Source: Cladochytrium replicatum
Lineage: Eukaryota; Chytridiomycota; Chytridiomycetes; Cladochytriales; Cladochytriaceae
DNA: 64,000 bases
Direction of reading: 5' to 3'
Assembly (NCBI GenBank): GCA_025526935.1
Contig: JAHLKD010000086.1
Location: 124,001 to 188,000 of the forward strand
Shown here one piece after another: positions 36,770 to 63,869 of the stretch. The translations under genes were made by a program, and so were the position numbers. The notes below the pieces were generated by a model. The model was not told the origin of the DNA. It made no database searches and saw nothing but the letters and a program-made list of their open reading frames with translations. Each line of letters begins with the position of its first letter. The stretch's first letter is position 1.

Positions 36770-36960
36770 CAGTACAGAATCAGGATCAGGAGACAAAACT
36801 AGCTCATAATCAAGACAGCTCTTCCAATGCGGTTAATCCCAAACTTTTTTGAATTTCATAATATGTAGTAACTCATTAAAAATCAATACATATCTCCCAC
36901 TTTTGGACAATCTAAAATACAAGTGTCAGTACAAATGAGTAAATTGGCAGCACATGGGGA
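36770..36960 (-). mobile_element. two LINE 3' pieces, rearranged
   Basis: 36770-36838 matches the terminal ORF2 codons of the LINE at 56.5 kb and 36842-36955 its 3' UTR, with the hairpin arms ATATGTA and TACATAT preserved around 36860-36887. The order of the two pieces is inverted relative to the parent element, so at least one rearrangement followed insertion. Confidence 0.65.
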
Positions 36961-37361
36961 GCCCTGCCTGCCAGGGGAATTGTGGTGGGTAACTATGCAG
37001 AGAATACCCATGCTTATTCGACCTAAGCTGAAGGGTAAGATCAAGAATCAAAGGTAAAAACGTGGGCTCAATAAGAAGTCTGAAATACAATAGAACAAGA
37101 GGATCAGAAGGATAAGCCATAGCGTGGGCTCTATTTGCTATATTAGTTTCATTGATCCCTCTGTTGTGGAACTTCTCTGTCGTGCTTACTTTCTTCCCAG
37201 GATTTGTGACCATTTAATTTCTTGTGAAGTCTCCGATTTCGATGTTTTTGATCCTGCCTATTACAAGGCAGCCCTTCATGCGTCTCCATCCATTGCATCT
37301 CAGGCTTTGGTTTGTGATGTAGTCTATCACCGTCATGCTCCAGTCTCCCTCTTTGCCCTGC

Positions 37362-37820: not shown

Positions 37821-37869
37821 TCTGGAGAGAGCGGCAGTGACAACACTGACTTTCCACAAGTCTTTGGCT

Positions 37870-38034
37870 CGGAGGCAGCCTTACGCTTTGGCTTGCGTCG
37901 GAGGCAGCCTTACGCTTTGGCTTGCGTCGGAGGCAGCCTTACGCTTTGGCTTGCGTCGGAGGCAGCCTTACGCTTTGGCTTGCGTCGGAGGCTGCCTTAC
38001 GCTTTGGCTTGCGTCGGAGGCTGCCTTACACTTT
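37870..38034 (+). repeat. 29-bp tandem repeat, about six units
   Basis: Six near-identical units of 29 bp begin GGAGGCAGCC and contain TTACGCTTTGGCTTGCGTC. Later units carry GGAGGCTGCC. Because 29 is not a multiple of three, each frame reads through all three phases, giving a 29-residue protein period. An expressed product is doubtful. Direct head-to-tail repetition without spacers makes it a minisatellite. Confidence 0.95.
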
Positions 38035-38093
38035 GAGTTAACAAAGCTGGCGTCCATTTTTGTTGTGGTGTGGCTGGAATGTTACCGAATTGA

Positions 38094-56508: not shown

Positions 56509-56530
56509 ATTTTTTTTTTTGAACTTAATA

Positions 56531-56560
56531 ATATGTATTTATTGTCCAACCAATACATAT
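56531..56560 (-). other. 3'-end hairpin of LINE copy A
   Basis: Perfect 9-bp inverted repeat, 12-nt loop, just inside the A tail. The SINE at 61.6 kb has the equivalent hairpin with a compensated base-pair change. This is a plausible recognition site for the ORF2 protein. Confidence 0.65.
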
Positions 56561-56663
56561 CACCCGCTGGTGCAAAATCCAAATACAAGTGTAAAAATAC
56601 ACGTAAATTGGCAGCACATGGGGAGCCGTGCGAGCCGTAGGAAAAGTAAAATGTTTCAAAACA

Positions 56664-59600
56664 CTAAGGCATATCCAAATCAACAAAAGCAGACAAGATA
56701 CAATCAGGAGCTGGAGACAAAACTAACTCATAACCAAGACAGTTTGACCAAATGCGGTTAAGTGCACGAAGAACAAGAACCCAATGGGAAAAGGCAGGGG
56801 AAGGATAAAAAGGCCGTGGTGAAAGCATATCAATTGCAATGTCAAGAGGTAGGCGGGGATCGTCAGGCGGGCCTAAATCAAAACTAGCAGACAAACTAGC
56901 ACGCAAATGTAGACACACAGAGACATGGGCACGCGACACTTCAGGGGCATCATGACAGTTCCTACAATAAGGTCGGGGGTTTGGAAACAGGCGGCCAAGC
57001 CGATATAGCAGGAACAAACGAAGACATACTGTTGGGAGATGTTGGTGTGGGGGTAGCAACAAAGGGTGGCGAAGTTTCAAATTGCGGACAGGGGCAAACG
57101 AAACTGCAATTGGTCCATTATGCGCAACAGCTAAAGACTGAAAATGCAACATCAACGGATGAAGTGGGAGCACAACAGGCATAGGAACAATGAGATCATT
57201 GTGACAAGCGGAAAAATAAGGAGATGAACCATAACCGACTGGAGATGACCGATAGAATTGCAACACAGCAGCTGGTAACAGAGGGCTGGAATCACTAGAC
57301 CAGCGAGCAAACATACGTGCTTGAAGGTACTTCAGCCTGAACTCAAAAGTAGGAATTTGCGCTAACAGCAACAAACCAACACGCGAAGTGGTATGGGCTA
57401 TCGAAAACAGACGACACAGTGCATGATAACAAAAACGCTCGAGTACCTGAAGCTGAGCAGTGGAAGGCCGAATAAATGCTAAACCAAACTCAAGTGAAGG
57501 TCTAATAAAAGACAAAAACAACAACCTGGCAACACGAGGAGCAGACCCACCAAAGTACGAGACATAAGGTGCAAAAAGATACAATGAGGCACGAGCTTTC
57601 TCTAAGCGATGATCAATAGTTGCAGCAAGATCAAACCCTTCAATAGTAAAATAGTGACCAAGGTATCTAAATGAAACCTCTACAGGGAGGGCAGAGCCAT
57701 GAAGCTTCAAGGGGGGGGGTAACCGTTGAGAAGATAACACAGCACACTTTGAAGGTGAAAACACAAAATGAGAAGCTAAAGCAAAATCTTCACAAATTTT
57801 CAATGCACGTTGGGCTTGCTCAGGGGTGGCAGAAAACAAAGCTATGTCATCAGCAAAAAACAACGAATTGAAAACAGGAGTGTTATAAGAAAACCTAGCA
57901 AGATGAGAAGATTCACGACGAAGGAGCTGTGCTAAAGGATTGATGAAAACTGAGTACAAGAACGGAGACAAAACAGAACCTTGAAAAAGACCTCGTGGAA
58001 GCGAAAACAAATCAGAAGAACGATTCTCTATAACAACCTGAGAAGAACAACGATCAAACATACTCATCAAAACAGAGATCAAACGGTTTGGAATTCTGGG
58101 AAATTGACGAAGACGTTCCCACAAAAGAGGCCTATGCACAGTATCATACGCTGCTTTAATATCTAAGAAAGTAACACAATAAGGCAGAGCAGTGCGGGAA
58201 GCCCGTCGAAGGGTAGCATCTAATGCAAAAACACACTCAACACCTGAACGATTGGCCTGGAAACCAGCTTGGGCGGGATCAAGTTTACCAACATGAGCTA
58301 CAAGCATAGGAAGCAGGGTACGCTCAAAGATTTTTCTATCAACATTGGTTAAAGTAATGGGGCGGTACTGACTAATATCACCAATGGAGCCCTTATTCTT
58401 CCAAACAGGTAACAACAAGCCAGCATTCCAGGCAGAGGGCGACAAACCTGAACGGAAAATAGCGTTTGAAAGTTGAACAAAAAGGATAGCAACATCAGAA
58501 GCTAACGGCTTAAATAACTCAGCTGGAATATGGTTTGGGCCAGGAGCAGAGTTGTTTGGGGAAGAACGAATAGCACAAACAAAGTCACTAACACTAACTG
58601 ACACAGAATCATTCAGCGCATGTAGACGAACGTGTTCTGCACTGGCAGAGGATTGTGCAAACTGAGTCTGATAAACGGAGGCAAAGTGATTGCGATAATG
58701 AGATAAAGAGGCAGGATCAGACAATAAACCACTTGCAGCTGAGCGCCGTTGATGACACCTACGCGCGGTGGAAAGAACTTTGCTAACCTCGGTTAAAGAA
58801 CTAGGAGAAGAACTAAACATATTGTCGCCAGAAGCCTCTCGAGCTCGCTGAGAAAGAGACCAAGTACGAAAAGCTTTGACACGCTCACGCGATAGCCGGT
58901 CACGCTCCAAGCGGCAATACTCAACTAAACCAGGATCAGGAGCATCACAGGAAGAAACAGCTAAATAGTGCTTATGAGCAAGTAAGTAGCTCCGTCGCAA
59001 GGCCACTAAATGCGGCGGCAACAATGGCAGGGCAGGGCGACGGCGAACTAAACTGGGGGGTCCAATGACACAAGCAGCACATGAAGTAACAAAGGACAAA
59101 ATAATATCCAATGCAGAGTCAATACATCCCTGTGCAACATCCACAGACATTTGGGCAAAGGCGGGAGCTTCTAAAATTGGACTGAGTGCAGCATTGACAT
59201 CAGCAAGGGTGGGATCAAAAAACAAATGTCCCACATCCTCCATTGCTTGAAAGACAGCAGGTTCACGCAACAGATGAGCAGCCCAGCGCTTGTGGGGGGG
59301 TGCAGCAGAGGGAGCGCTGGCATTGGGAGGAGCAAAAGAAAAAACAGCTGTAACCGGAAAATGGTCAGAAGCCCAAGGCATAAACTCGCCGTCGGCTAGA
59401 CGACTATGAACTATGTAAGAAATAGGATCACATTGAAGCAGAGGATTGACAAACAACAAATCGATAATGGAGTCACCATTGCGAGAAGAAAATGTGGGGT
59501 TATGACAGGAAGGGTGCTTAACTAGAGAGAAACTAGCGGCAGAAATAAACTGCTCAAACAACCTACCCCTACGATTTGAAGAATGATCACCAGTAGCTAA

Positions 59601-60044
59601 AAAACGGGCATTGAAATCGCCCAACAAAAGAACAGGGCACGGAGACGACGGGACATGTTGAGGAAGTGAAGCAATAAACTCTTCAAGGAAGGGGTCCTGA
59701 GCAATACCACACGGAGGCAAATAATACCCTCCAACCAAAAGCCCACGATATGTAAACCATAGAGAGGTGCCACCATAACTAGAAACGAGACGGAAATCAG
59801 AAGCTCTACAAAGACTGCGATTGATCAAGACTCCCACACCAGCCCGTCGTGTACCCGATGACCCAGGAGAAAAACGAGTGTCAAAAATCAAATCTGGAGA
59901 AGGCAGCGGGTCTAAAGGAAAAAGGTGTGTTTCAGTCAGGAGCAGAAAAACAATGTGATTTGCGCGCATAAAACGAAACAGTGAATCAAGAACTCCAAAG
60001 CTCAAATTGCGACAATTGAAGGTACCAACTCGAACACTAATCAT
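56664..60044 (-). CDS. LINE ORF2: AP endonuclease and reverse transcriptase, 1126 aa
   Basis: N-terminal APE-type endonuclease (about 1-230): VGTFNCRNL, LLTETHLF, LLGDFNARF, and ASDHFPVT with the catalytic His. Reverse transcriptase (about 480-760): NSAPGPNHIPAELFK, YRPITLTNVDRKIFER, FLDIKAAYDTVHRPL, LFQGSVLSPFLYS and the catalytic FADDIALFS. The C-terminal part carries a zinc-knuckle-like CRNCHDAPEVSRAHVSVC, then ends FVDLDMP. No RNase H domain was seen. The layout (endonuclease, RT, C-terminal knuckle) fits L1/Tad-type clades; the clade is not assigned. All catalytic motifs are intact, so activity is plausible. Confidence 0.93.
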   Translation of the reverse strand: MISVRVGTFNCRNLSFGVLDSLFRFMRANHIVFLLLTETHLFPLDPLPSPDLIFDTRFSPGSSGTRRAGVGVLINRSLCRASDFRLVSSYGGTSLWFTYRGLLVGGYYLPPCGIAQDPFLEEFIASLPQHVPSSPCPVLLLGDFNARFLATGDHSSNRRGRLFEQFISAASFSLVKHPSCHNPTFSSRNGDSIIDLLFVNPLLQCDPISYIVHSRLADGEFMPWASDHFPVTAVFSFAPPNASAPSAAPPHKRWAAHLLREPAVFQAMEDVGHLFFDPTLADVNAALSPILEAPAFAQMSVDVAQGCIDSALDIILSFVTSCAACVIGPPSLVRRRPALPLLPPHLVALRRSYLLAHKHYLAVSSCDAPDPGLVEYCRLERDRLSRERVKAFRTWSLSQRAREASGDNMFSSSPSSLTEVSKVLSTARRCHQRRSAASGLLSDPASLSHYRNHFASVYQTQFAQSSASAEHVRLHALNDSVSVSVSDFVCAIRSSPNNSAPGPNHIPAELFKPLASDVAILFVQLSNAIFRSGLSPSAWNAGLLLPVWKNKGSIGDISQYRPITLTNVDRKIFERTLLPMLVAHVGKLDPAQAGFQANRSGVECVFALDATLRRASRTALPYCVTFLDIKAAYDTVHRPLLWERLRQFPRIPNRLISVLMSMFDRCSSQVVIENRSSDLFSLPRGLFQGSVLSPFLYSVFINPLAQLLRRESSHLARFSYNTPVFNSLFFADDIALFSATPEQAQRALKICEDFALASHFVFSPSKCAVLSSQRLPPPLKLHGSALPVEVSFRYLGHYFTIEGFDLAATIDHRLEKARASLYLFAPYVSYFGGSAPRVARLLFLSFIRPSLEFGLAFIRPSTAQLQVLERFCYHALCRLFSIAHTTSRVGLLLLAQIPTFEFRLKYLQARMFARWSSDSSPLLPAAVLQFYRSSPVGYGSSPYFSACHNDLIVPMPVVLPLHPLMLHFQSLAVAHNGPIAVSFAPVRNLKLRHPLLLPPHQHLPTVCLRLFLLYRLGRLFPNPRPYCRNCHDAPEVSRAHVSVCLHLRASLSASFDLGPPDDPRLPLDIAIDMLSPRPFYPSPAFSHWVLVLRALNRIWSNCLGYELVLSPAPDCILSAFVDLDMP

Positions 60045-61438
60045 TGACGAAGATGGGTTGAGCGAGGCTGACGCGCAATCCCGCGGGCACTGTCCAGCAC
60101 AGTTTCCTGAGCATCCATGGGGAGCTGACCACGGACATACAGGAAAATAGCAGGATCAGTAACTGAACTGAGGATATGTGCATATCTCTTGTGGACAACT
60201 TCCCTGACCGCAGCCTCCCGCTGCTCCAAAGGCAGAGTAGAGGCTCGGCGAAGAAAGTCAGGGTTTGATTCGTCAGTGGAAGCTTCCTGGGTGGAGAAGT
60301 GCGCACGGAGAGCAATTGCGGTTGAGCGAATACAGATAAAGGAAGCAATGTTGCGACCAACGAAACTGATGTGGCGGATACCACGCACCACCTCATTGCC
60401 CAAGAGAGCCCTCAGCATGGTCCGCACAAAGCCGAGCCGCTGTCTCATGATGTCCTTGATGTACACAGTGGTCAAATCATCCACACGGGCCTGAAGATCA
60501 GCAGGTGGGGAGACCAGCAGCGGAGAGGTCGGAGGATAGAATACGACAGGCCGAGGGCCACGAAGGCTGACATTCGAAGTGGGGTCACGACCAGCAAGGG
60601 CAGTCCTGACAGCTTCTGTACGAGATTCAGCACTCAGTGTGGGGAGACTCTCAAGCACACGGGCACGGGCATTGGCAGCAGCAGCGGCATAAGTGCGTGG
60701 ACCACGAGGTCCACGTGGGGCAGGTCGACTAGACGGGGGGCGAGGGCCAGGAGCACCAGAGTTCCCAAGATCGTCCTGAATTGGAGGATTACCATGCAGT
60801 TGTCTAGGGGGAAGGCACACAGGCGCAGCCACATCATCATGGCGGGAGACTGGGGCAACTGGAGGTGAAGGCGAAGGCAGCGGCCTCCCAAAGCGACCCA
60901 CCAGATCCTCGGCCATATCACGACAAACACTAAAAAATTCAGCAGGAGTGTCCCTCGGCAAATGTGCAAGCATAGGATCCAGCATCGCCAACGGATCAAA
61001 GGTTGCACAAACAGATCGCATCTGAGTGAGAACGACACGGAGATCGGCCAGAGATGCAACACTCGAGGGAGCAGCCACAGCAGCAAGAACCCGGACACCC
61101 GGCAGATGTGATCGGGAACGAGAACGGGAGCGACCACGGGGCAATTCATGTTCAGCAGGTCTTTTGGCGCGTCGGTCACGTGATCGGAAGTCACGTGATT
61201 CGGCATTTTCATCCTCCCCCATATTCACATCATCGGCCCAGTGAATTGGAGAGGCAGGAGCGGAGAATGGAAGCTGTGGAGCGGAATTTTCAACAGAGGA
61301 GGCACGGGGGTGCGAACGGGCCTCAAAAATCACGGTGCCACCAGAAAGTCCATCAGGGGGCACAGCGGGGGGTGCGGCAGGCGGCGCGGCATGCGGCGCA
61401 TCAGGCGGCTGCGCATGCGGAGCGCTGGGAGGCGGCAT
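60041..61438 (-). CDS. LINE ORF1 protein, 465 aa
   Basis: Starts at ATG MPPPSAPHAQPPDAPH, the first in-frame ATG after the CT-rich leader. The first about 60 residues are a Pro/Ala/His-rich run and Arg/Ser repeats follow (RSRSRSHLPG at about 120), typical of RNA-binding tails. The C-terminal half carries a folded-looking domain: VYIKDIMRQRLGFVRTMLRA, then SFVGRNIASFICIRST and REVVHKRYAHIL. I saw no CCHC knuckle in this protein. The stop TGA overlaps the ORF2 ATG as ATGA, so ORF2 is probably translated by termination-reinitiation. ORF1 proteins bind the element's RNA and assist target-primed reverse transcription. Confidence 0.85.
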   Translation of the reverse strand: MPPPSAPHAQPPDAPHAAPPAAPPAVPPDGLSGGTVIFEARSHPRASSVENSAPQLPFSAPASPIHWADDVNMGEDENAESRDFRSRDRRAKRPAEHELPRGRSRSRSRSHLPGVRVLAAVAAPSSVASLADLRVVLTQMRSVCATFDPLAMLDPMLAHLPRDTPAEFFSVCRDMAEDLVGRFGRPLPSPSPPVAPVSRHDDVAAPVCLPPRQLHGNPPIQDDLGNSGAPGPRPPSSRPAPRGPRGPRTYAAAAANARARVLESLPTLSAESRTEAVRTALAGRDPTSNVSLRGPRPVVFYPPTSPLLVSPPADLQARVDDLTTVYIKDIMRQRLGFVRTMLRALLGNEVVRGIRHISFVGRNIASFICIRSTAIALRAHFSTQEASTDESNPDFLRRASTLPLEQREAAVREVVHKRYAHILSSVTDPAIFLYVRGQLPMDAQETVLDSARGIARQPRSTHLRQ

Positions 61439-61443
61439 TGATT

Positions 61444-61445
<2 letters not shown>

Positions 61446-61508
<63 letters not shown>
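61446..61508. repeat. (GA)n tract in the LINE leader
   Basis: About 60 bp of almost pure GA/CT dinucleotides, with one GATA interruption. It forms the 5' leader of LINE copy A. Copy B has a similar but less regular tract at 56447-56507. Confidence 0.95.
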
Positions 61509-61509
<1 letters not shown>

Positions 61510-61516
61510 GGATGAG

Positions 61517-61570
61517 GCCCGTGTAGCTCAGCGGATAGAGTGTTTGCGTGCTAAGCAAAGGGTCGCCGGT
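61517..61570 (+). pseudogene. truncated tRNA-Arg copy
   Basis: Identical to the intact tRNA-Arg at 62351 apart from two substitutions in the anticodon loop (GTGCTAA in place of CTCCTAA, giving an anticodon GCT) and one in the T stem. It stops at the start of the T loop, where the SINE tail begins. It cannot form a functional tRNA. Confidence 0.85.
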
Positions 61571-61573
61571 GGG

Positions 61574-61865
61574 ATTTTTTTTTTTGAATGTTATAACATG
61601 TATTGACAATGCTTAATCAGTACATGTCACCCACGTGTACTTCAACCAAGATTTGGAATCTTCAGTACTTGGGGAGCCGTGCGAGCCGTAGGAAAGAGGA
61701 GCGAAGGCAATGGCGAATCGAAGGAGGTGTGGCGCGGTACTTGCACGTGACACGATATTGCGAGAGATATATTTCGTAGGAAATTCGAATCCAGTCCCCT
61801 ATAGGATTCGAACCGCGGAGTTTAGCTTCGAAAAGTCGCATTCGTACCGACTGAGCCACTATGAT
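61574..61865 (-). mobile_element. tRNA-derived SINE with LINE-like tail
   Basis: Sense on the minus strand, about 290 bp. The head (61863-61781) carries a pol III A box (GTGGCTCAGTCGG) and a perfect B box (GGTTCGAATCC), but its stems are degenerate. A body of about 100 bp follows. The tail (61690-61585) resembles the end of LINE copy A, sharing GGGGAGCCGTGCGAGCCGTA and the terminal hairpin (arms at 61596-61605 and 61618-61627), and it closes with a run of about 11 T on this strand. This is the build of a SINE mobilised by its partner LINE. It interrupts the tRNA-Arg copy. Confidence 0.75.
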
Positions 61866-62344
61866 TTTTTTTTTTTTTTTTAACAATATTATTATTTATT
61901 TTGCACATACAATGCATAACAAAAAACAACACCCAAAGTGCCTTACAAGATGGTCATGGACCAGCACATAGGGAAGCGCGCGCAGCATAAGGAAAACCAA
62001 CAAAGCAAAACAGAGAATGTAAACTCAAACCTGTGGCTACCCGTCAGATACTGCTAAGGTGCCAAAAAAACAGGTGAGTAATAAATAATGAGAAAAGAAA
62101 ACGTTAAAGATCCACAAATGCAGGGCCAAAGAGGGAGTCTGGAGGAGAAACTTCTAATGGCAGACCCATACAGTGAAGCCAAATCTTATGGAGACAACGA
62201 AAAACTAGATACCACGGTGCAAGATTCACTGGGTTGACAATGCGAAGTGGACGAAGGCCATCAATTGCAACGTCAAGCAGAAGTTGTAAAACAGGAACAG
62301 GAACAGGAGGCAACAATAGGTCAAGACGCAAACATTCTGAAACG
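61866..62344 (-). mobile_element. 5'-truncated LINE, second subfamily
   Basis: Poly-T of about 18 (the A tail) at 61864-61881, then 3' UTR and the last 75 codons of an ORF2 (62331-62104). These include VLQLLLDVAI, LAPWYLVF and CLHKIWLHCM and end AFVDL, similar to but clearly diverged from the copy A ORF2. The 5' edge is at 62343, joined to the flank of the tRNA-Arg gene. Related fragments lie at 37.4-37.8 kb. Confidence 0.75.
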
Positions 62345-62350
62345 GATGAG

Positions 62351-62423
62351 GCCCGTGTAGCTCAGCGGATAGAGTGTTTGCCTCCTAAGCAAAGGGTCGC
62401 CAGTTCGATCCTGGCCTCGGGCT
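62351..62423 (+). tRNA. tRNA-Arg, anticodon CCT
   Basis: Cloverleaf drawn by hand: acceptor GCCCGTG with CTCGGGC (one T-T mismatch), D arm GCTC/GAGT, anticodon stem TTTGC/GCAAA with loop CTCCTAA, T arm GCCAG-TTCGATC-CTGGC. Internal A and B boxes are intact. It reads AGG codons. No intron is present and no clear T run follows within 20 bp. Confidence 0.9.
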
Positions 62424-63869
62424 CATGAATTGCTGTTTATGGTGGGTGCCTCTCAATGAGAAGTCAGCCTTAATTAAGGTGACAATGTTTATTTTCTTAT
62501 ACTCGAATACATACACTTAAATTGGCGACTGTTTTCTTATACTCCGACATATACACTTATATTGGCGATTGGCACAGTAAAAATCTGTACTCTGTTTGAG
62601 CATGGTTGAGTACACTTCATCCTGAGACTTATTCACAGTGTACTCACAAAGTTGTTAATCTTGTACGCAAATTGTGCATGTTTTCTGAAGAGGGGTAACT
62701 ACCTTCCAAACCAGCTTTCAATGAATGCCCACTGTTCAAATGCATGACTCTAGGGAAAAGAGAGGTGGAGAGGCAGAGAAATAGAAGATGATTTTAGGGG
62801 CTACACAGAGTACTATTGAATGTAACGTTTGCAACAACTTAAGTTGGTATGCCCATTTGTGGTGAATAATGATGTTTAATTGGCTGTCACACTACTATTA
62901 CCAGAATCAGCTCCAGGGGATGAGCTGTGTTTATTTTGCTTTGACATAGAACAACGAGCCATTCTTGAAGTTGGTCAGTGAAGCAAATAATTAGCGTCGC
63001 AGATGAACTGGATGAACACTCACAGGTTTTGGTTGTTTATAATGGTACCAGCACTGGGAAAATTGACAGATAGACATTCTAAAGACTAAAACTACAGTAT
63101 CATTTGTTGGTACTCACAATGTCTTGATCATGGTGCTGAACGCCCCTCCTCATCTTTTGGATTTCTGAAAACATGTTGCTTTCATTAATCTTGCCACCAG
63201 CATGCTAAGATCAAGGTTTGTAGCCTAGAATTTTTTAAAGTTTCCATAGAAAAATGGTCTTCAACTGTAACAGACACTACGCATATCTCGTCCCTGCTCC
63301 ATGTTCCGATTCATTTTCAGAAGCAGCCACACAGCTGATAAGGTTAAAAACCCTTAAAAAACCTCCAGGACAGCAAATACATAGCAGAACGGTAAGTAAA
63401 CAATGAGATAACAAGGTAAAACAAGATATCGCAGTTGAAAAAAAACTGAAACATTATCCAAAAGGTTAATTCCAAAAAAGATAATAATCACTTCTGTTTC
63501 AATGATTGTACCACGATTCAATGTCCTTTTTGAACTGTTTCCTTGGAATTTCGACAACCAGTGCAAAATTTTTGCGCTTCCACTTTTGCAGCTGTTGTTG
63601 CCCACACATTTCCCTCATCAGATGGAACCTTGAATTCATTGATGAGAGAGTCTTTCCTTGGCATTGCCCATAGTCGAGAAAGAAGTTGCCAAACGAAAAA
63701 ATTGCTTCCCAGTTACCTGTGGATGGAGCCTAGTCGCGAAGTAGGGAGTTGAGTGGAGTGGTTTGGTGGAACTTAACCAGGGCAGATATGGTTAAAACTC
63801 AATTGGAGTTGTTTTCTATGCTCACTCAAGTAGACTTCATATTTGGAATATACCTACGTTCATTGGGGA
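62424..63869. other. gene-free stretch
   Basis: No coding potential recognised. Short words such as CATCCTGAGACTTATTC (62611) also occur in the dispersed repeat family, suggesting a decayed copy. The rest is unremarkable. Confidence 0.4.

Follow-up and report, generated by a model that had tools for sequence, protein, structure and literature searches.

In the genome of Cladochytrium replicatum, a SINE and the LINE families A, B and C lie immediately upstream of tRNA genes in divergent orientation, and the SINE shares its 3' tail with LINE A. We examined a stretch of 64,000 nucleotides (C86:124001-188000, hereafter the window) and searched its elements in a single assembly of 50.5 Mb in 198 contigs. 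The first-pass annotation of the window recognised that SINE and LINE share a tail, which stands, and missed the main feature, the targeting of tRNA genes. We consider it likely that the SINE is tRNA-derived and is moved in trans by LINE A, whose machinery, targeted to tRNA promoters, would recognise it by the hairpin tail that the two share.

The window contains an array in the order tRNA-Arg, LINE B, SINE, LINE A, from which we infer a history of insertion (Table 1). The SINE copy in the window lacks GACC, the first bases of full-length copies. Its head carries two motifs that we take to be the A box and the B box of a Pol III promoter, and the presence of both in a short non-coding repeat places the element among tRNA-derived SINEs. 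The Rfam tRNA model gave no match to the head (61500-61900, up to E 5) and matched only the separate tRNA-Arg fragment. The head is thus not scored as a tRNA and its cloverleaf is not recognisable, so that the tRNA origin rests on the A and B boxes. The region of the tRNA-Arg fragment (61510-61574) may be an unusually long target duplication from a later insertion; by eye, target site duplications are short or absent. A pattern scan allowing up to three mismatches found the SINE head at 121 places in the genome (54 + 67), with none for a reversed control, which shows that the candidate is a multi-copy element and not a single occurrence. In a DNA search, at least 34 places reached the top score across all 279 bp among the best 40 of 137 candidates scored. 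The SINE copies appear to be recent, because many of them are identical.

Table 1. Positions of the elements, their parts and the tRNA genes in the window.
Feature	Positions	Strand	Remarks
SINE	61575-61864	minus	290 bp; tRNA-like head, body, LINE A-like tail, A tail 61575-61585
Putative A box TGGCTCAGTCGG in SINE head	61847-61858	minus	
Putative B box GGTTCGAATCC in SINE head	61804-61814	minus	
Tail motif CCTACGGCTCGCACGGCTCCCC at SINE tail start	61671-61692	minus	identical to LINE A 56620-56641
SINE terminal stem-loop	61594-61629	minus	RNA-strand arms TGACATGTACTGAT (61629-61616) and GTCAATACATGTTA (61607-61594)
LINE A, apparently full-length	56510-61509	minus	5' (CT)n of variable length, ORF1, ORF2, 3' UTR, A tail
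LINE A ORF1, 465 aa	60041-61438	minus	
LINE A ORF2, 1126 aa	56664-60044	minus	endonuclease PF14529, PF03372; reverse transcriptase PF00078
SINE-shared tail motif in LINE A 3' UTR	56620-56641	minus	
LINE A terminal stem-loop	56529-56562	minus	RNA-strand arms TGATATGTATTGGT (56562-56549) and ATAAATACATATTA (56542-56529)
LINE B 3' end with A tail, 5'-truncated	61865-62345	minus	hairpin 61885-61934; 5 bp upstream of, and divergent from, tRNA-Arg
tRNA-Arg(CCT)	62351-62424	plus	presumed target gene of the array
Second tRNA-Arg copy, 5' part	61510-61567	plus	between LINE A and SINE; 97% identical to 62344-62401
Older LINE subfamily tail	36845-36968	minus	same terminal stem; arms 36894-36882 and 36872-36858

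Both reading frames of LINE A, ORF1 and the endonuclease-reverse transcriptase, are open, and the stop of ORF1 overlaps the start of ORF2 as ATGA. ORF1 has no Pfam match. The best named PDB matches of the reverse transcriptase are LINE-1 ORF2 and then R2, which does not fix its clade. At least 40 full-length matches to the LINE A 3' end (the best 40 of 380 candidates scored) and at least 40 long matches to the LINE B 3' end (the best 40 of 466) are 99-100% identical. Also matched were PF08550, a nitrogen-regulator domain named for fungal AreA, and a muniscin domain, which point weakly to a fungus, and a tandem repeat with copies 94-97% identical lies at 37869-38035 of the window.

The sharing of a 3' tail between the SINE and the neighbouring LINE, as claimed in the first-pass annotation, is well supported. 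With up to three mismatches allowed, GGGGAGCCGTGCGAGCCGTA occurs in the window only at 56620-56639 and 61671-61690, against 0.00 occurrences expected from 100 shuffles, and the SINE tail and the 3' UTR of the adjoining LINE A are homologous. Both elements carry, as had also been noticed, an inverted repeat beside the A tail: a stem of 13-14 bp in which 13 of 14 positions are paired in each, so that the terminal stem-loop is kept across the SINE/LINE partners. The arms were originally read on the plus strand, where they do exist; the RNA strand, however, is the minus strand, and a T.G wobble in the earlier reading becomes a C x A mismatch in the RNA. The piece at 36.86 kb, from the tail of an older LINE subfamily, keeps a stem as well, and the majority tail of about 10 older relatives, taken by eye, pairs at all 14 positions. 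Compared with 200 shuffles each, the hairpins have z-scores of -3.40 (SINE), -3.18 (LINE A; the common tail, one base different from the window copy), -4.92 (older subfamily majority), -4.07 (LINE B) and -3.58 (LINE C), which represent two tail groups rather than five independent tails. No shuffle folded as well for the SINE, LINE A and LINE B, and one did for each of the older subfamily and LINE C.

The covariation of the stem had been put forward as an argument that the hairpin matters. The change of the second pair on both sides is real, from U-A to C-G on the RNA strand. The six substitutions between the arms of LINE A and the SINE comprise the two that make up this compensated change, three that keep or create pairs and one that breaks a pair. 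We dropped the same substitutions randomly on matching bases, a simple model applied in seven runs with unadjusted P values. At least 13 pairs were kept in 3.5% of trials from LINE A to the SINE (P 0.035), the change from the older subfamily to the SINE gave P 0.21, and the reverse directions and the change from the older subfamily to LINE A were uninformative (P = 1). In an alignment of seven tails, the scores exceeded those of shuffles modestly: two pairs showed a double change (mean of 0.4 in shuffles, 32 of 500 of which reached two), one of the two being a G-C to U-G change in a decayed copy; the covariation score was 0.153 against 0.101 in shuffles (14 of 500 as high), and 87.2% of cells were paired against 84.5% (22 of 500). 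Sliding the structure by -3 columns gave three double-changed pairs against the two observed, yet left only 36.7% of cells paired. The genomic copies do not help: 112 BLAST hits in overlapping loci gave 15 distinct segments, and within the SINE and within LINE A the tails hardly differ (52 and 44 identical hits, respectively). Few lineages therefore inform the stem, genomic SINE copies add no covariation, and we set aside covariation across genomic copies as a test. Decayed LINE A copies lose stem pairs, as expected. The covariation argument thus retains one double change, set against one broken pair, the range of P values and the shifted structure; covariation alone is thin and does not carry the case for the hairpin.

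A better argument is the recurrence of the stem in LINEs B and C. Their tails, too, close with a stem directly beside the A tail, at the same place as the stem of LINE A; they are related to each other (~82%) and have no BLAST match to the LINE A tail. The stems of LINEs B and C differ by an A-U/U-A double change, with one pair broken in B and two missing in C, and the observed number of pairs or more was kept in 4.4% of placements from B to C and 0.9% from C to B (P 0.044 and 0.009, unadjusted). These observations bear on the possibility that the shared tail is recognised through its primary sequence, the hairpin being incidental and due to shared ancestry and A/T-rich inverted repeats. The SINE and LINE A do have the 22-nt motif and a large part of the stem in common by descent, the two differ by a single double change, the older subfamily gives P 0.21 and the slid structure has as many double changes; but this explanation does not account for a stem at the same place in tails without a BLAST match to LINE A, nor for the double change and pair retention between LINEs B and C, and we regard it as rather unlikely. 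Recognition of the terminal hairpin by the LINE reverse transcriptase, proposed in the first-pass annotation from the covariation, remains the likeliest reading of the shared tail and stem, although the covariation itself lends it weak support.

The 5' ends of the SINE could be read at 104 of the 121 places (46 + 58), the other 17 lying outside the count. Directly before an ARAGORN tRNA gene were 38 of the 104, all of them divergent and none in the same orientation. The distance to the tRNA gene has a median of 6 bp and a range of -5 to 28 bp, and is 2-11 bp in 35 of the 38, when 9 nt are allowed for the full head; the complete head start is present in 19, and the other distances are a few bases off. 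All 38 junctions are distinct, so segmental duplication does not explain the pairs. The tRNA genes represent 18 isotypes (Pro, Thr, Ala, Cys, Met, Glu, Gly, Leu, Ile, Phe, Gln, Arg, Asn, Asp, Lys, Val, Ser and His). Another 52 SINEs follow an A run, and every one of these stands head-to-tail behind a LINE or SINE tail, the nearest family being LINE B in 29 cases, LINE A in 12, the SINE in 10 and LINE C in one. In four more, the A run is impure and the LINE B tail lies 12-33 bp away, bringing the stacked copies to 56. Five SINEs of the A-run class are followed 70-172 bp farther upstream by a divergent tRNA gene, as stacking predicts.

Five SINEs in four distinct regions (those on C18 and C24 look like copies of one) are head-to-head with an antisense LINE A, including the copy at C80:95358, which has the antisense LINE A before its head. 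At loci L013, L037/L038, L185 and L170, a LINE A stands divergently with its 5' end a few bases before a SINE head. A further five SINEs adjoin sequences that are tRNA-like by eye, one with a weak Rfam tRNA match at the expected position (20.1 bits, E 0.65, below the 29-bit cut-off) and one without an Rfam tRNA match. The other three (L031, L166 and L174) share a repeated stretch, GCTAGCGTCGTGGGTTAAA, which includes a possible B box AGTTCGATTCT and is not a tRNA according to ARAGORN or Rfam. Four tandem SINEs stand beside tRNA-Asn at C43:330483-331421 (L187, L206-L208), with TTCCG after the A run at three junctions. Another array (L195, 1-281) consists of a LINE B tail, a short LINE A tail, an apparent 3' tRNA fragment (judged by eye) with 9 A, and then a SINE, an order suggesting that fragments of tRNAs, too, are reverse transcribed and inserted there. 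Many matches lie near contig ends, and we considered telomeric arrays; this was rejected by eye, as the orientations are mixed and the anchors are tRNA genes.

The same association is seen from the side of the tRNA genes. We took the first 60 of at least 62 tRNA places (63 of 2278 candidates scored), picked by tRNA score, with 220 bp on each side, and compared them with a BLAST library in which LINE B and LINE C were represented by pieces of 1.5 kb and 1.25 kb, so that more distant or 5' parts were missed. A LINE A, B or C or a SINE was found upstream in 48 of the 60 and downstream in one, a sample in which the neighbours L104/L107 and L120/L121 look duplicated. All 76 upstream BLAST hits are divergent, the nearest family is LINE A in 27 cases, the SINE in 9 and LINEs B and C in 6 each, and the match starts within 20 bp of the tRNA in 34 of the 60. 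Among the 12 unmatched genes, two have a LINE A 5' end upstream (L097 by BLAST, L108 by sequence) and four have antisense relatives of LINE A ORF2 (L090, L092, L103 and L122; 38-54% identity, E 7e-5 to 2e-16), giving a LINE or SINE upstream of 54 of the 60. Two have only (GA)n (L119 and L129; a weak ORF2 match at L119, E 0.005, was discounted), and at four (L074, L079, L101 and L124) no element was recognised upstream. In the first 70 loci and the window, 27 element ends lie no more than 120 bp from the 5' end of a tRNA, and every one of them is divergent. The elements show the narrow spacing from tRNA genes that marks tRNA-gene-targeted retrotransposons.

With the same library, none of the eight 5S matches (seven complete and one cut, with alike flanks and hence fewer independent cases) and neither of the two U6 genes was occupied on either side. 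A third U6 match scores below the cut-off; it is truncated, carries a short A run and is flanked by a LINE B tail and a LINE A that lacks its 5' part (L219, 1-529), and is either a retrocopy or a chimera inside the array. One 5S gene is truncated and continues into repeats of the type CTAACCCTAA (L216, 1-547), and several 5S matches lie near contig ends and are perhaps subtelomeric.

The A-run position of half of the SINEs, taken alone, would also fit insertion at A tracts, with a LINE endonuclease that targets A/T runs, as in Zorro3, which inserts at poly(A) (PMC7175516), and a merely secondary association with tRNA genes. This is improbable given the 38 SINEs whose distance from a tRNA gene varies little and whose orientation is always the same, and given that tRNA genes picked independently of the elements are occupied so much more often upstream than downstream. 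Random insertion with survival only in safe places is very improbable: although the literature on compact genomes discusses tRNA genes as places where integration is safe (PMC5006619), the distances, the single orientation and the 48 upstream against one downstream are too exact for it, and the near-identity of the copies would have left selection little time.

We therefore return to LINE machinery targeted to tRNA promoters. The SINE would be transcribed by Pol III into an RNA whose 3' end copies the LINE A 3' UTR, and the stem-loop beside its A run would be recognised by the LINE A reverse transcriptase; the choice of LINE A rather than another LINE as the putative mobiliser rests on the homology of the tails. 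The LINE machinery would nick the DNA a few bases before the tRNA gene, near the Pol III start, and prime reverse transcription there. The outcome is the insertion pattern that we observe, with SINE and LINE 5' ends facing the 5' ends of tRNA genes, while the enzymology is conjectural. A divergent insertion leaves the site on the tRNA side free, and later insertions would push the earlier ones outward; this explains head-to-tail arrays with the youngest element innermost. The guidance probably comes from proteins on the A/B-box Pol III promoter rather than from DNA sequence, because tRNA genes of 18 isotypes with different junctions are used.

A more comprehensive version is possible, and we offer it tentatively. 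According to it, several LINE families and the SINE land on A/B-box Pol III promoters and are present at most tRNA genes, and the SINE is not only carried along but also serves as a target; the arrays are time-ordered with the youngest element nearest the tRNA, and a promoter of the tRNA type is required. The last point is based on the empty 5S and U6 genes. The SINE is counted as a target because its tRNA-like head appears to attract LINE A (the five head-to-head copies in four regions); this suggests that the head itself serves as a LINE A target, and is a lead rather than a result. If the targeting is real, the more than one hundred SINE sites catalogued here can be used for testing how guidance works; LINEs A, B and C, with their terminal hairpins, form a natural set of tails for testing template recognition.

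The eel SINE and its partner UnaL2 combine a tRNA-derived head, a LINE-derived tail and a terminal stem-loop. Tail sharing between SINEs and LINEs with terminal stems is well established, including in fungi (Mg-SINE/MGL and SINE2-1_BG/Tad1-24_BG), and compensatory changes have been reported in a plant LINE lineage (PMC3747384). Like the present SINE, the SINEs of these fungal pairs, which are of the stringent-tail type, have a tRNA-derived head, a LINE-derived tail and a terminal stem-loop; they differ in that the passages of PMC3747384 that describe such pairs mention no targeting of tRNA genes by the SINE. Among open-licence papers, we found no report of a tRNA-targeted SINE that shares the targeting of a LINE; open-licence papers likewise yielded no tRNA-targeting LINE outside social amoebae and none in fungi. 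In the part of Table 1 of a 2018 review covered here, the tRNA-targeting non-LTR elements are all from social amoebae (PMC5911963), and the available portions of PMC6875170 and PMC10886601 contain nothing on tRNA-targeted LINEs.

The dictyostelid elements TRE5, TRE3, NLTR-A and NLTR-B are likewise non-LTR elements beside tRNA genes, and NLTR-A sits 2-6 bp upstream of the mature tRNA (PMC5911963, PMC5006619). The elements described here differ in their host and in the tRNA-headed SINE that rides along; in addition, 5S genes are a target of TRE5, but all eight 5S matches, alike in their flanks, are empty here. Pol III genes are also the insertion sites of the yeast elements Ty3, which mostly lies 0-20 bp upstream of tRNA genes (PMC7175516), and Ty1, but both are LTR elements that use an integrase. 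Zorro3 of Candida albicans is, like the LINEs of C. replicatum, a LINE of a fungus whose insertions have an A run on either side (PMC7175516), but its target is the A tract and not the tRNA gene. Tail sharing and tRNA targeting are each known; if the proposed targeting is true, guidance of LINEs by Pol III occurs in a second kind of host.
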